Below are positions 10,188 through 62,780 of a stretch of DNA of 62,780 bases, piece by piece. The stretch comes from Candidatus Polarisedimenticolia bacterium (GTDB lineage: Bacteria; Acidobacteriota; Polarisedimenticolia; Gp22-AA2), in the NCBI GenBank assembly GCA_036001465.1, contig DASYUH010000085.1, positions 1 to 62,780 on the forward strand, read 5' to 3'. Both the position numbers and the translations under genes were made by a program. Position 1 is the first letter of the stretch. The number at the start of each line of letters is the position of its first letter. The notes below the pieces were generated by a model. That model saw only the letters and a program-made list of their open reading frames with translations, had not been told where the DNA came from and searched no databases.

Positions 10188-12470
10188 TCAGGGACAGAGG
10201 GTCAGGCCGAAGTACTCGACCAGGATCACCAAGTCGAGCGGCCCGACGAAGCCGTCTCCGTCGAGGTCCGCCCCGGAGCTGTACGCGGGCTCGGACGCGG
10301 CGGCTCCCCAGGCGCGCGCCAGGATGTTGAGGTCCGCGCCATCGACCCGGCAGTCGCGGTTGATGTCGGGCGTCTTGACCACCCTGATCGCGGCCGGCCG
10401 GCCCCCGGTCAGGCCGTCCGGATTGGTCACCGCGACGGACCTGGGGCCGAGGGCGGCCGCGCCGTCGACTGAGACGGGGGCCGTCAGGCGGCCGGACGAC
10501 ACGAAGGTCGCGGCCCCCGCGGCGATCCCGTCACCGGCATCCACCCGGGCGGCGGGCAGGAAGTCGGCTCCGTCGACGCGGATCTCGAAGAGCCCTCCCT
10601 GCGGCAGGTAGATTGACCCCGTGCGCGTCTCGACGACCGAGACGACGGTCGGCGCCGTGGCGGCGATCACGGCGGTCACGGCCTGGGATCCGCCGGCCGT
10701 CGGCGCTTCGTGGCTGGCGATGTCGCTGATCCCGTTGACGATCATCCCGGTGTCGGGGGGCGGCGACGGCGCGCGCACCGACATCCCCACCGAGCCGGCC
10801 GATCCGGCTGGCAGCGTCCCGATCTCCCAGATGACGACTCCGCTGGAATGGACTCCTCCCGCCGTCGCCGACACGAAGACCGTGTCGCGGGGCACCGTGT
10901 CACGGATCACGACCCCTGTCAGGTCGGTCGCACCCGGGTTGGAGTACCTCAGCGTATAGGTGACCACGCCCCCCGCACCGACAGGATCGGGAGCGCCGTT
11001 GACGACGAGCGTCGGTGGGGTCGCCCGGGCCGGTTTCTCGAGCAGGAGGTGCGAGGGGACCTTGACGAGGAACGCGTCCAGCCTATCGCCGCCGGCATTG
11101 CTCGTCCAGATGAAGTACTCCCCGGTGACGTCCAGGTTCCCCTTCGGCGCCTTGCCGTAGTCGTTCCCCCCGCCCGCGGCGTCGAGATCGGTCAGCACGG
11201 GGGCGACGACCAGCACGTCGAGCGTGCCGTCCAGGCGGAAGCAGATGATCTCGTTCGCCCAGACGGCGTCGGCGAGGGACGCACTGCTGCCGCACGCGAA
11301 CTGCCGTTCGAGCGGCAGATCCGGGCGCGCGTTGCCATGGGCGATGTGGTTGGGCGCCGGCGCCGACCAGTCCGTGCTGTGCGACACGAGGACGCCCGAG
11401 AGGGGATCCTTGGAGAAGTCCCAGAGGAGAACGGCGTTCGGAGCGAGGTTCCAGTCGTCCGAGCCCACCACGTAGCCGTGCCCCATGTCGGCGTGACCGA
11501 CCGCCCCGGCCTGGTCCCAGACCAGCCTCTCGTTCCCGGTCGCGAGATCGAAGACCCGCATCTCCAGGTCGTGCCTCTGATCCACATCCTCCAGGCTCAG
11601 GAGCCAGCGGCCGCTTTTGTCGACGTGGCACTCGTTGAACACTCCGATCTTCGGGAACATCTGGAACTGCTGCGTGTCTTCGTGGTAGACGACGCAGCCC
11701 AGCGGCCCGAAGCCCGGCAGCGCCTCGAGGGTCGCGGAGTGGACCCGGTCGTCGTCGCTCGAATGCGCCTGCCGGATGACCCGGTCGGGGCCGAAGCGGG
11801 ACGTGACGTCGAAGACGGTCTGGAACTGAGTCGTCGCGACGTCATAGCGCAGCAGCTGCGGGCCGTTGTCGAGGTAGAGCGTGTCCGGTTGGGTGGCGCT
11901 CCAGTACCAGCCCTCCGCGCTGCGCCAGCTGAGCGGGGAGGCCGGCTCGAACAGGGGCCCTCGATTGGAGACCTGATCGGTCGTCTTGTCGTACGCGAAG
12001 AGCGACGGGCCCGGCCCGCCGCGCGCCCGGTCGAGCCCGAGCAGGATCCACATCTCGTTCCTGCCGGCGTGATTGTTGATGTTGCGCCAGTAGGAGTAGC
12101 CGACGTAGTCCACGCAATCCCCGCCGCCACAGTCGCCGGCGTTCGTCAGACGCACGCCCGCGGTTCCATAGGGCGGGGGGAACAGGAACGCCCCGCGGGC
12201 CGGCAAGAACGACAGGATTTGCTGGAGTGTCGGGCGGGGCCTCACCAGCCCGGTGCCGGCCGTTTCCAGGAACCCGCCGACGAAGGGCAGAAGCTCCGCG
12301 GCAGGTCCCTGCCGGCCCCACCCCGGAGCCGGCGGGAACGCGAGGCCCGCTCCGAGGATGACGGCGGTGGCGGCGCACAGGCGGGCACGGATGCGCAGTC
12401 CCCTGCCCCGGAGCACATCGTGAAGCCCATGCTCCTGGACACATCCCGTCCGCCGTTCAAGCGTTCCCAT
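10188..12470 (-). CDS. Exported beta-propeller protein with DUF11-like and dockerin-like tail
   Basis: A 760-residue protein beginning at ATG 12470, seven bases after GGGAGGG. An atypically long N-region precedes the hydrophobic export segment (CAATAVILGAGLAFP). Residues about 110-500 resemble a TolB/oligogalacturonate-lyase-type propeller (SLFAYDKTTDQVSNRGPLF, GRWLLSLEDVDQ, NHIAHGNARPDLP). Then come a DUF11-type beta domain (DPVGAGGVVTYTLRYSNPGATDL), an IPT/TIG-like domain and two dockerin type I-like calcium loops (DINRDCRVDGADLNILARAW and ADLDGDGFVGPLDLVIL) at the C-terminus. Its N-terminal motif (ELLPFVGGFLETAGTGLVRP) recurs in the truncated gene at 62541, so the two are paralogues. No enzymatic role can be assigned with confidence. 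Confidence 0.82.
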   Translation of the reverse strand: MGTLERRTGCVQEHGLHDVLRGRGLRIRARLCAATAVILGAGLAFPPAPGWGRQGPAAELLPFVGGFLETAGTGLVRPRPTLQQILSFLPARGAFLFPPPYGTAGVRLTNAGDCGGGDCVDYVGYSYWRNINNHAGRNEMWILLGLDRARGGPGPSLFAYDKTTDQVSNRGPLFEPASPLSWRSAEGWYWSATQPDTLYLDNGPQLLRYDVATTQFQTVFDVTSRFGPDRVIRQAHSSDDDRVHSATLEALPGFGPLGCVVYHEDTQQFQMFPKIGVFNECHVDKSGRWLLSLEDVDQRHDLEMRVFDLATGNERLVWDQAGAVGHADMGHGYVVGSDDWNLAPNAVLLWDFSKDPLSGVLVSHSTDWSAPAPNHIAHGNARPDLPLERQFACGSSASLADAVWANEIICFRLDGTLDVLVVAPVLTDLDAAGGGNDYGKAPKGNLDVTGEYFIWTSNAGGDRLDAFLVKVPSHLLLEKPARATPPTLVVNGAPDPVGAGGVVTYTLRYSNPGATDLTGVVIRDTVPRDTVFVSATAGGVHSSGVVIWEIGTLPAGSAGSVGMSVRAPSPPPDTGMIVNGISDIASHEAPTAGGSQAVTAVIAATAPTVVSVVETRTGSIYLPQGGLFEIRVDGADFLPAARVDAGDGIAAGAATFVSSGRLTAPVSVDGAAALGPRSVAVTNPDGLTGGRPAAIRVVKTPDINRDCRVDGADLNILARAWGAAASEPAYSSGADLDGDGFVGPLDLVILVEYFGLTLCP

Positions 12471-61107: not shown

Positions 61108-62004
61108 TTAGGACGGCTGGTCTGTTTTCTCCACCGGGAGGACCTTGTAACCCAGGAGCCGTTCGGCCTCCTCGATTCCTCCCTGCAGGTCGCCGACGGT
61201 GTTCATCTTGGTGAGGTCGACGCCGATGTTCACGAGCGTCTGGGCGATTTCGGGGGACAGGCCGGTGACGATGACGGTCGCGCCGAGGAGACGCGACGCC
61301 TCCACCGTGAGGACGAGATGGTTCGCCACGTTCGAGTCCATGGCCGCGACTCCGGTGATGTCGATGACGACGACCCGCGCGCGGTTGGTCCGGATGCCGC
61401 GCAGGAGCTGCTCGGTGAGCTGGCGGGCCCGCTGCGGATCGATGACGCCGATGATCGGCAGGATGAGGAGCCGCTCGCGCACCTGCAGGACCGGCGTCGA
61501 GAGCTCCCGGATCGCCTCCTGCTGCTCGCGGATGGTGCGCTCGCGCTCCTGCACGAACCCGACCGCCACGGTGATGGCGATACGGTTGGCGGCCGGCTCG
61601 TAGGCGTCCAGGATGCGGTTCAGCTTGTCGAAATCGGCGTGGTAGCGGGCGAACAACGAGCGGGCGAGGACGTCGCGCAGGAGAAGCACGATGCCGACGA
61701 CCTCGTCGGTCTGGACGCCGCGAGGGATGATGCGCTCGGAGAGATTGCGCGAGTATGCCTGCAGGGCCTCGAAGGTTCCCGTCTCGAGCGCCTCGACGTA
61801 GTTGTCGTACACGGAGGTCGCCTCGGCGAACACCTCCTCCTTGGTCATCGCCGTGAGCAGCTTCGCCTCGGTAATGCGCTGCGCCCACTCCTCCCGCAGC
61901 TGGGTCCGGTTCTGCCTCAGATGGCTCACCAGCTCGCGCAGGAGCGCGGTGGTCGATTCGGTCGGCACCTGCGTCAGGTTCGCCGGGTTGCGTCCCCCCT
62001 TCAT
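61108..62004 (-). CDS. rsbR: RsbR-like stressosome protein
   Basis: A 298-residue protein with an N-terminal helical or globin-like RsbR domain (HLRQNRTQLREEWAQRI ... RSLFARYHADFDKLNRILDAYE), a linker helix (VQERERTIREQQEAIRELSTPVLQV) and a C-terminal STAS domain. VVVIDITGVAAMDSNVANHLV carries Ser224 at the position of the first RsbR phosphosite, and TVIVTGLSPEIAQTLVNIGVDL covers the second. The N-domain is the likely signal receiver. AGGAGG lies seven bases before ATG 62004. It heads the minus-strand regulatory block; a possible -10 TAAGAT lies at 62084-62079. Confidence 0.92.
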   Translation of the reverse strand: MKGGRNPANLTQVPTESTTALLRELVSHLRQNRTQLREEWAQRITEAKLLTAMTKEEVFAEATSVYDNYVEALETGTFEALQAYSRNLSERIIPRGVQTDEVVGIVLLLRDVLARSLFARYHADFDKLNRILDAYEPAANRIAITVAVGFVQERERTIREQQEAIRELSTPVLQVRERLLILPIIGVIDPQRARQLTEQLLRGIRTNRARVVVIDITGVAAMDSNVANHLVLTVEASRLLGATVIVTGLSPEIAQTLVNIGVDLTKMNTVGDLQGGIEEAERLLGYKVLPVEKTDQPS

Positions 62005-62331: not shown

Positions 62332-62360
62332 TTGACGAATTCAGTGGAATCACCTATCTT
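62332..62360 (+). promoter_or_regulatory. Sigma-70-type promoter upstream of the riboswitch
   Basis: TTGACG (62332-62337) and TATCTT (62355-62360) are separated by exactly 17 bases in an AT-richer stretch. A start near 62367 would place the riboswitch within the first 120 bases of the transcript. Confidence 0.65.
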
Positions 62361-62394
62361 CGTGGGTGCAGCTAACTTTCAGATTGCGGAGACC

Positions 62395-62488
62395 CCTTCC
62401 CGACAAGGGCAAACCCGTCGCGAGGCGGGGACGCAAAGCCACGGGTCAGAGTGAGCTTTCCTGACAGCCGGGCCGCCGAAAGAAAGGG
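62395..62488 (+). promoter_or_regulatory. Cyclic-di-GMP-I (GEMM-I) riboswitch
   Basis: The aptamer shows all hallmark segments in order: AGGGCAAACC (62406-62415), a hairpin CCCGTC-GCGA-GGCGGG with a GNRA tetraloop, GGGACGCAAAGCC (62428-62440), a second arm ACGGGTCAG..CTGACAGCCGGG, then GCCGCCGAAAG. CCCTT and AAGGG close the outer stem. The GGG after the first A includes the G expected for cyclic-di-GMP rather than cyclic-GMP-AMP recognition, when aligned by hand with the Vibrio Vc2 aptamer. It lies in the leader of the secreted-protein gene at 62541, so that gene should respond to cyclic-di-GMP. Confidence 0.92.
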
Positions 62489-62510
62489 ACACCAGGCAGT
62501 TTCAAGGGAT

Positions 62511-62541
62511 TGGTGGTCTGCCGCCCATGGGAGGGCCACCA
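62511..62541 (+). promoter_or_regulatory. Possible ribosome-site-sequestering hairpin
   Basis: TGGTGG (62511-62516) can pair with CCACCA (62536-62541), which would enclose the GGGAGGG ribosome site and include the A of the start codon. Located just after the riboswitch aptamer, this is a candidate expression platform acting on translation. No intrinsic terminator is seen between aptamer and gene. Confidence 0.4.
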
Positions 62542-62780
62542 TGCCTTGGGACGTCGTGCGATCCGTCCGCCGAGTCTGTGTCCTCGGGATGGCTCTCGTC
62601 GCGGCCGCGCTGGTCTTCTCCGGCCACCACAGCTTTTCCCAGACCTCCCCCGCGCCGGAGCTGGTGCCGTTCCCCGGCGGGCTCATGGAGACGGCCACCA
62701 CGGGGCTGGTCCGGCCCCGCCTGTCCGCGTCCGTCCTGCAGGCGCTCCTGCCGGCCCGCGGTCCGTTCGTCTTTCCCGCG
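62541..62780 (+). CDS. Secreted beta-propeller protein paralogue, cut by window end
   Basis: The frame opens at ATG 62541 (GGGAGGG upstream) and stays open to the window edge, giving the first 80 residues. It begins with a signal peptide (VRRVCVLGMALVAAALVFSG) and continues ELVPFPGGLMETATTGLVRP and LLPARGPFVFPA. These match ELLPFVGGFLETAGTGLVRP and FLPARGAFLFP at the same place in the propeller/dockerin-like protein at 10188-12470, so the two genes are paralogues. Expression is probably governed by the cyclic-di-GMP riboswitch directly upstream. The rest of the protein is outside the window. Confidence 0.8.
   Translation, partial: MPWDVVRSVRRVCVLGMALVAAALVFSGHHSFSQTSPAPELVPFPGGLMETATTGLVRPRLSASVLQALLPARGPFVFPA

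Follow-up and report, generated by a model that had tools for sequence, protein, structure and literature searches.

Among described systems, the closest to the locus reported here are the c-di-GMP-I (GEMM-I) riboswitches Vc1 and Vc2 of Vibrio cholerae, which belong to Rfam family RF01051. In Vc2 the ligand is contacted by G20, A47 and C92; Vc1 lies ahead of gbpA, a gene for a secreted surface-binding protein, and the interval between them has no apparent terminator or anti-SD sequence (PMC4744006). For Geobacter bemidjiensis, PMC2996986 describes several copies of GEMM riboswitches near genes for outer-surface Ig/Fn3-like proteins, and GEMM-regulated genes for fibronectin type III proteins. 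Two further groups bear comparison, the cGAMP-sensing GEMM-Ib riboswitches of Geobacter and the Rfam family RF03167, c-di-GMP-I-GGC.

The locus lies in a stretch of 62,780 nucleotides (the window) from a soil Acidobacteriota of the Gp22 group, whose genome comprises 4.58 Mb in 114 contigs and whose relatives are Acidobacteria 'gp22' soil MAGs. A cmscan of the whole window against Rfam gave one above-threshold match, a complete GEMM-I aptamer on the forward strand, which bears out the element named in the original prediction. The top model was RF03167 (75 bits, gathering threshold 59, E 5.8e-16), whose alignment marks no pair as broken, and RF01051 matched the same place (70 bits, gathering threshold 35, E 1.8e-13). 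Neither model had a match in 14 control genomes. With Vc1 and Vc2 the element has in common the aptamer architecture, helices P1-P3, the GNRA loop, read from the cmscan alignment as GCGA, and the three ligand contacts; the same alignment predicts a P2-P3 interhelical pair between C 62432 and G 62467. Like Vc1 it precedes the gene of a secreted protein, but the window adds an SD hairpin, to whose anti-SD arm a leader strand 5' of the aptamer is complementary. Its fold is that of the Geobacter GEMM-Ib aptamers, from which it differs in having G20; its P1 and P3 sequences resemble RF03167, from which it differs in having A47 where the family consensus has G47. The G. bemidjiensis switches belong to another phylum, and the excerpt of that source links them neither to sigma-54 nor to a leader:anti-SD platform (PMC2996986).

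To judge by every sequence feature tested, the window element is a c-di-GMP-I riboswitch. The aptamer itself is of an already known kind, and it very probably controls the downstream secreted-protein gene. The host genome holds three other GEMM-I aptamers, on contigs C94, C45 and C21. Its GGDEF proteins number about 18, from 20 matches of which two are split. The analysis adds three observations to the original prediction: the GGC variant is ranked first by Rfam, the orthologs have sigma-54 promoters, and the leader strand is complementary to the anti-SD strand. We give even odds to a broader reading, in which Methylomirabilota and Gp22 Acidobacteriota would share a large, double-gated c-di-GMP-I regulon, with sigma-54 acting on transcription and leader/anti-SD pairing on translation of secreted surface proteins, and the window as a member whose promoter has changed to the sigma-70 type. 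If true, two global control systems would be tied together for surface proteins in a little-studied soil and groundwater phylum, whose genomes carry as many as nine GEMM-I switches, almost every one behind a sigma-54 promoter, and this would open testable ways into the c-di-GMP biology of uncultured bacteria.

Table 1. Features of the riboswitch locus (window coordinates).
Feature	Position	Strand	Remarks
RsbR-type protein (weak RsbRD_N, plus STAS), divergent neighbour	61108-61995	-	domain search; synteny
Sigma-70-like promoter TTGACG-17-TATCTT	62332-62360	+	9/12 consensus bases
5' leader strand GCGGAGACC, putative helix P0	62386-62394	+	complementary to anti-SD strand; directly 5' of aptamer
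CCCUU, predicted P1-extension 5' strand	62394-62398	+	sequence and constrained folds; overlaps leader-strand end
GEMM-I / c-di-GMP-I aptamer	62399-62481	+	cmscan; contacts by alignment G20 = 62408, A47 = 62435, C92 = 62476
AAGGG, predicted P1-extension 3' strand	62484-62488	+	sequence and constrained folds; partner of CCCUU
SD-sequestering hairpin	62512-62540	+	SD GGAGG at 62530-62534; kept in orthologs
Anti-SD strand GGUCUGCCGC	62515-62524	+	pairs with leader 62386-62394 or, hairpin part, with SD arm
Start of secreted propeller/Ig/LamG protein gene	62541-62780	+	ATG 62541; aligned with ortholog L058:2966-6520

Promoters of the window and its relatives

Transcription starts of the window and its relatives were inferred from promoter motifs. 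The promoter originally called textbook is present, with one such site found against 0.1 expected in shuffled sequence, but it is only moderate in strength and its class is not conserved. At the aligned place the leader of the sister genome G001 reads TTGACA-17-TAGCCT. Sigma-54 sites were scored with a hand-made matrix and a cut-off of at least 10; upstream of the window aptamer the best -24/-12 element (GG-N10-GC) scores 2.5 (p 0.31), and G001 likewise is without a sigma-54 site at its aptamer, having the sigma-70-like promoter instead. In contrast, scores of 10-15 are found near the corresponding place in the orthologs of G003, G004 (both copies) and G005 and in the NC10 and Rokubacteria cassettes, against a background of 2 sites reaching this cut-off among 125,560 window positions. 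Within Methylomirabilota a sigma-54 site lies no more than 110 nt upstream in 98 of 111 aptamers and in 2 of 217 control windows. The host genome has one gene for the sigma-54 factor, rpoN. On this sequence evidence the promoter class differs among relatives, the sigma-70-like type taking the predicted place of sigma-54 in the window.

The association extends to other targets. A second group of aptamers precedes secreted S8 proteases (L002 and L003, on host contigs C94 and C45, and the orthologs L014, L015, L027, L028, L030 and L031), and all eight score at least 10 for sigma-54; the two host proteases behind them end in GLIWG-like repeats. No member of a third group, the DUF11-protein aptamers, reaches that score. 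We found no paper linking sigma-54 to GEMM-I in the open-licence literature searched, which is weak evidence of novelty.

Leader strand, ribosome-site hairpin and direction of switching

The hairpin suggested earlier at the ribosome site holds up: taken alone it folds with -15.7 kcal/mol, with the SD within its 3' arm. The partner of the leader strand, GGUCU-g-CCGC, consists of the anti-SD arm and hairpin-loop bases. We compared this arrangement across 11 cassettes, whose targets are propeller-protein orthologs in the Gp22 Acidobacteriota G001, G003, G004 (twice), G005 and G010, orthologs in NC10 (G396), Rokubacteria (G397) and G463, and a different gene of G396. In every cassette, across two phyla and much sequence divergence, the start codon follows 134-143 nt after the beginning of the aptamer. 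Cognate leader and anti-SD strands pair more strongly than swapped ones (means of -17.0 to -18.0 against -15.8 to -16.7 kcal/mol, p ~0.011), and the same test on a control spacer gives p 0.76. Cognate pairing also beats swapped pairing in 109 Methylomirabilota elements (z -7.2), where the control region carries a small residual signal (p 0.0096, about 0.6 against 2.0 kcal/mol), so that part of the swap signal reflects composition or relatedness. The two strands show matching changes, with GAAGACC/GGUCUUC alongside GGAGACC/GGUCUCC (G010, L129), GGAGAUCC/GGAUCCUCC (L136), GAAGAGC/GCUCUUC (L116) and GGUGAAGACC/GGUCUUCGUCACC (G397). We consider the leader:anti-SD platform likely to be real. Together with sigma-54 coupling it looks like a recurrent variant in Acidobacteriota Gp22 and Methylomirabilota; a limited search of the open-licence literature returned no description of a leader-based platform. 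A switching strand placed upstream of the aptamer would make a concrete and cheaply testable mechanism.

We lean towards a model in which the c-di-GMP-I riboswitch would govern translation of a secreted multi-domain surface protein, turning it OFF through competition between leader and anti-SD. At low c-di-GMP, the leader would pair with the anti-SD strand, leaving the ribosome site open and allowing the protein to be made. On binding of c-di-GMP, P1 and its CCCUU:AAGGG extension would form, in competition with the leader helix for the shared Cs; the released anti-SD strand would then pair with the ribosome site, and translation would drop. In most relatives the sigma-54 promoter would act as a separate transcriptional gate, whose place in the window would be held by the sigma-70-like promoter. 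With the window leader ending at the AUG, leader:anti-SD pairs are expected to number 9.1 and SD pairs 1.4 in the free ensemble; in the aptamer-constrained ensemble the numbers are 0.2 and 9.8, the latter from the SD hairpin. The coupling was computed for 64 Methylomirabilota elements in which both helices occur: in 54 it is negative, meaning that binding favours the SD hairpin, in nine about zero and in one positive. In the window its sign depends on the chosen ends (-3.6 to +2.4), and across orthologs it is mostly negative. Since negative coupling prevails in these elements and orthologs, OFF at translation is the direction we narrowly prefer. These energies consist in part of the loop penalties of the energy model, and the folding program ignores tertiary effects and stacking. 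In equilibrium folding of full leaders with their first codons, the SD hairpin wins in both states for the window and most orthologs, so a kinetic step would be needed. We also considered, for the ligand-free state, a pairing of the leader with the P3 strand GGGUC, and rejected it because L025 and L068 do not keep it.

The same riboswitch and helices could work in the ON direction, an outcome we regard as possible but rather unlikely. Here c-di-GMP would close P1, and a leader:anti-SD helix coaxial with P1 would free the ribosome site, so that high c-di-GMP would bring about synthesis of the surface protein, in keeping with biofilm logic. The precedent of Vc1, which turns on expression of the secreted adhesin gbpA (PMC4744006), counts against OFF. 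In addition, the leader:anti-SD helix encloses the aptamer, so that a closed aptamer could favour it topologically, and tertiary stacking, which the folding program leaves out, would be relevant to such a helix. Against ON stand the energy coupling, which runs the opposite way in 54 of the 64 elements and agrees with it in one, and the overlap of the P1-extension CCCUU with the leader strand.

A relic aptamer, or one whose sole effect is on transcript stability or termination, with the SD hairpin and leader match incidental, is improbable. The gene family is often without a switch, and some cassettes retain promoter, leader and hairpin around an aptamer core below the Rfam thresholds (24.6 bits in L069, 22.3 bits in L081); however, the aptamer of the window is intact, the spacing and the complementarity have been kept in two phyla, and we found no intrinsic terminator.

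Ligand of the aptamer and variation among its relatives

The c-di-GMP named in the original prediction as the ligand draws its support from the pocket residues, and model columns were converted to Vc2 numbering to place them in the window. By alignment, all three contact positions are canonical. At model position 37, equivalent to Vc2 position 47, the RF03167 consensus as printed has G (GACGCGAA), where the window reads GACGCAAA with A. Taking the family name GGC to denote G20/G47/C92, which is our own reading, we rejected the GGC variant by pocket, as the window lacks G47, though its score lies above the RF03167 threshold. All 112 Methylomirabilota RF03167 matches have C at position 92, 105 have G at position 20 and 107 have A at position 47; at this last position the remaining five (four C, one G) are apparently displaced by small insertions. 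With A47 in the window and in nearly all of these matches, the label reflects overall similarity and not the pocket, and a best match to the Rfam GGC model does not imply a GGC pocket. The contacts being the ordinary G20/A47/C92, c-di-GMP is still the most likely ligand despite the top rank of RF03167. That the label is correct and the specificity altered is very improbable: RF03167 does outscore RF01051, by 75 to 70 bits, yet the A at position 47 in the window and in 107 of the 112 matches departs from the family consensus, and positions 20 and 92 of the window are canonical.

The mark of cGAMP-sensing GEMM-Ib aptamers, A at position 20, is absent in the window. In Gmet_0970 a change of A20 to G turns selectivity to c-di-GMP (PMC6456294). 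The G001 ortholog of the window aptamer, L011, has A and not G at this position, as do L161, L196, L200, L209 and L211. This change is linked to cGAMP sensing in Geobacter; in the sister genome the switch at this gene may respond to another ligand. In the S8-protease aptamers, all with sigma-54 promoters, the 21-46 pair is flipped to C-G, with G20 and A47 unchanged. Some aptamers of the host genome have the C21-G46 pair, as do Geobacter cGAMP aptamers. Two cassettes with a drifted core, L069:2826-2905 and L081:1327-1406, from a Rokubacterium and a Gp22-order genome, keep the sigma-54 site, leader, hairpin and spacing, and their drift may reflect an altered ligand or decay.

In Methylomirabilota (G402-G494) there are 117 RF03167 matches in 50 of 95 genomes, with up to nine per genome, a large expansion of these aptamers. 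Hydrophobic N-terminal stretches are found in many of the sampled targets, as are domains of the Ig, fn3 or a similar type; response regulators and STAS-like proteins are also among the targets. A single gain of the riboswitch on the target-domain tree is not supported: its patchy distribution takes 5 changes, no better than the shuffled mean of 5.6. In G029 and G033, GEMM-I aptamers (L016, L021) lie 16 nt before genes with CxxCH motifs resembling multiheme cytochromes.

The downstream protein and its gene neighbourhood

Contig C85 ends at 62780, which cuts the downstream gene after 80 codons. Its N-terminus aligns with those of the orthologs in G001, G003 and G005, in agreement with the secreted protein proposed for this position. 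The full-length G003 ortholog (L058:2966-6520) has 1184 residues; a signal peptide was recognized by eye, and an N-terminal domain of some 430 residues is followed by Big_7 and fn3-like regions and a pair of Laminin_G_3 domains. As the N-terminal domain has no family in Pfam or NCBIfam, its fold was predicted instead. The AlphaFold2 model is a beta-propeller (mean pLDDT 81.2, pTM 0.84), so that 'propeller-like' was an apt description of the predicted fold. Among solved structures the model is closest to the oligogalacturonate lyase 3pe7, aligned over 342 residues with a VIA-align Z of 29.1 and an rmsd of 3.6; WD40 propellers score far lower (Z ~22). At 13% identity, this resemblance of the model is one of fold only.

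The propeller (residues ~35-465 of the L058 protein) is conserved, with homologs also in Nitrospira and Methylomirabilota. The host genome has two more paralogs, at 11010-12311 (-) of the window and at G000:C99:70574-71884. A GEMM-I aptamer is absent at both, and the C99 paralog has a strong sigma-54 site (TGGCACATCGCTTGCT).

The stressosome/EPS setting is likewise recovered, with STAS, HATPase, RsbU_N-HATPase and sugar-transferase genes nearby. The divergent RsbR-type STAS gene adjoins the switch in the host and in G001, G003 and G004. The contigs G000:C85, G001:C59 and G004:C215 all break a few hundred bases into the same downstream gene, which is consistent with repeats or paralogs confusing assembly.
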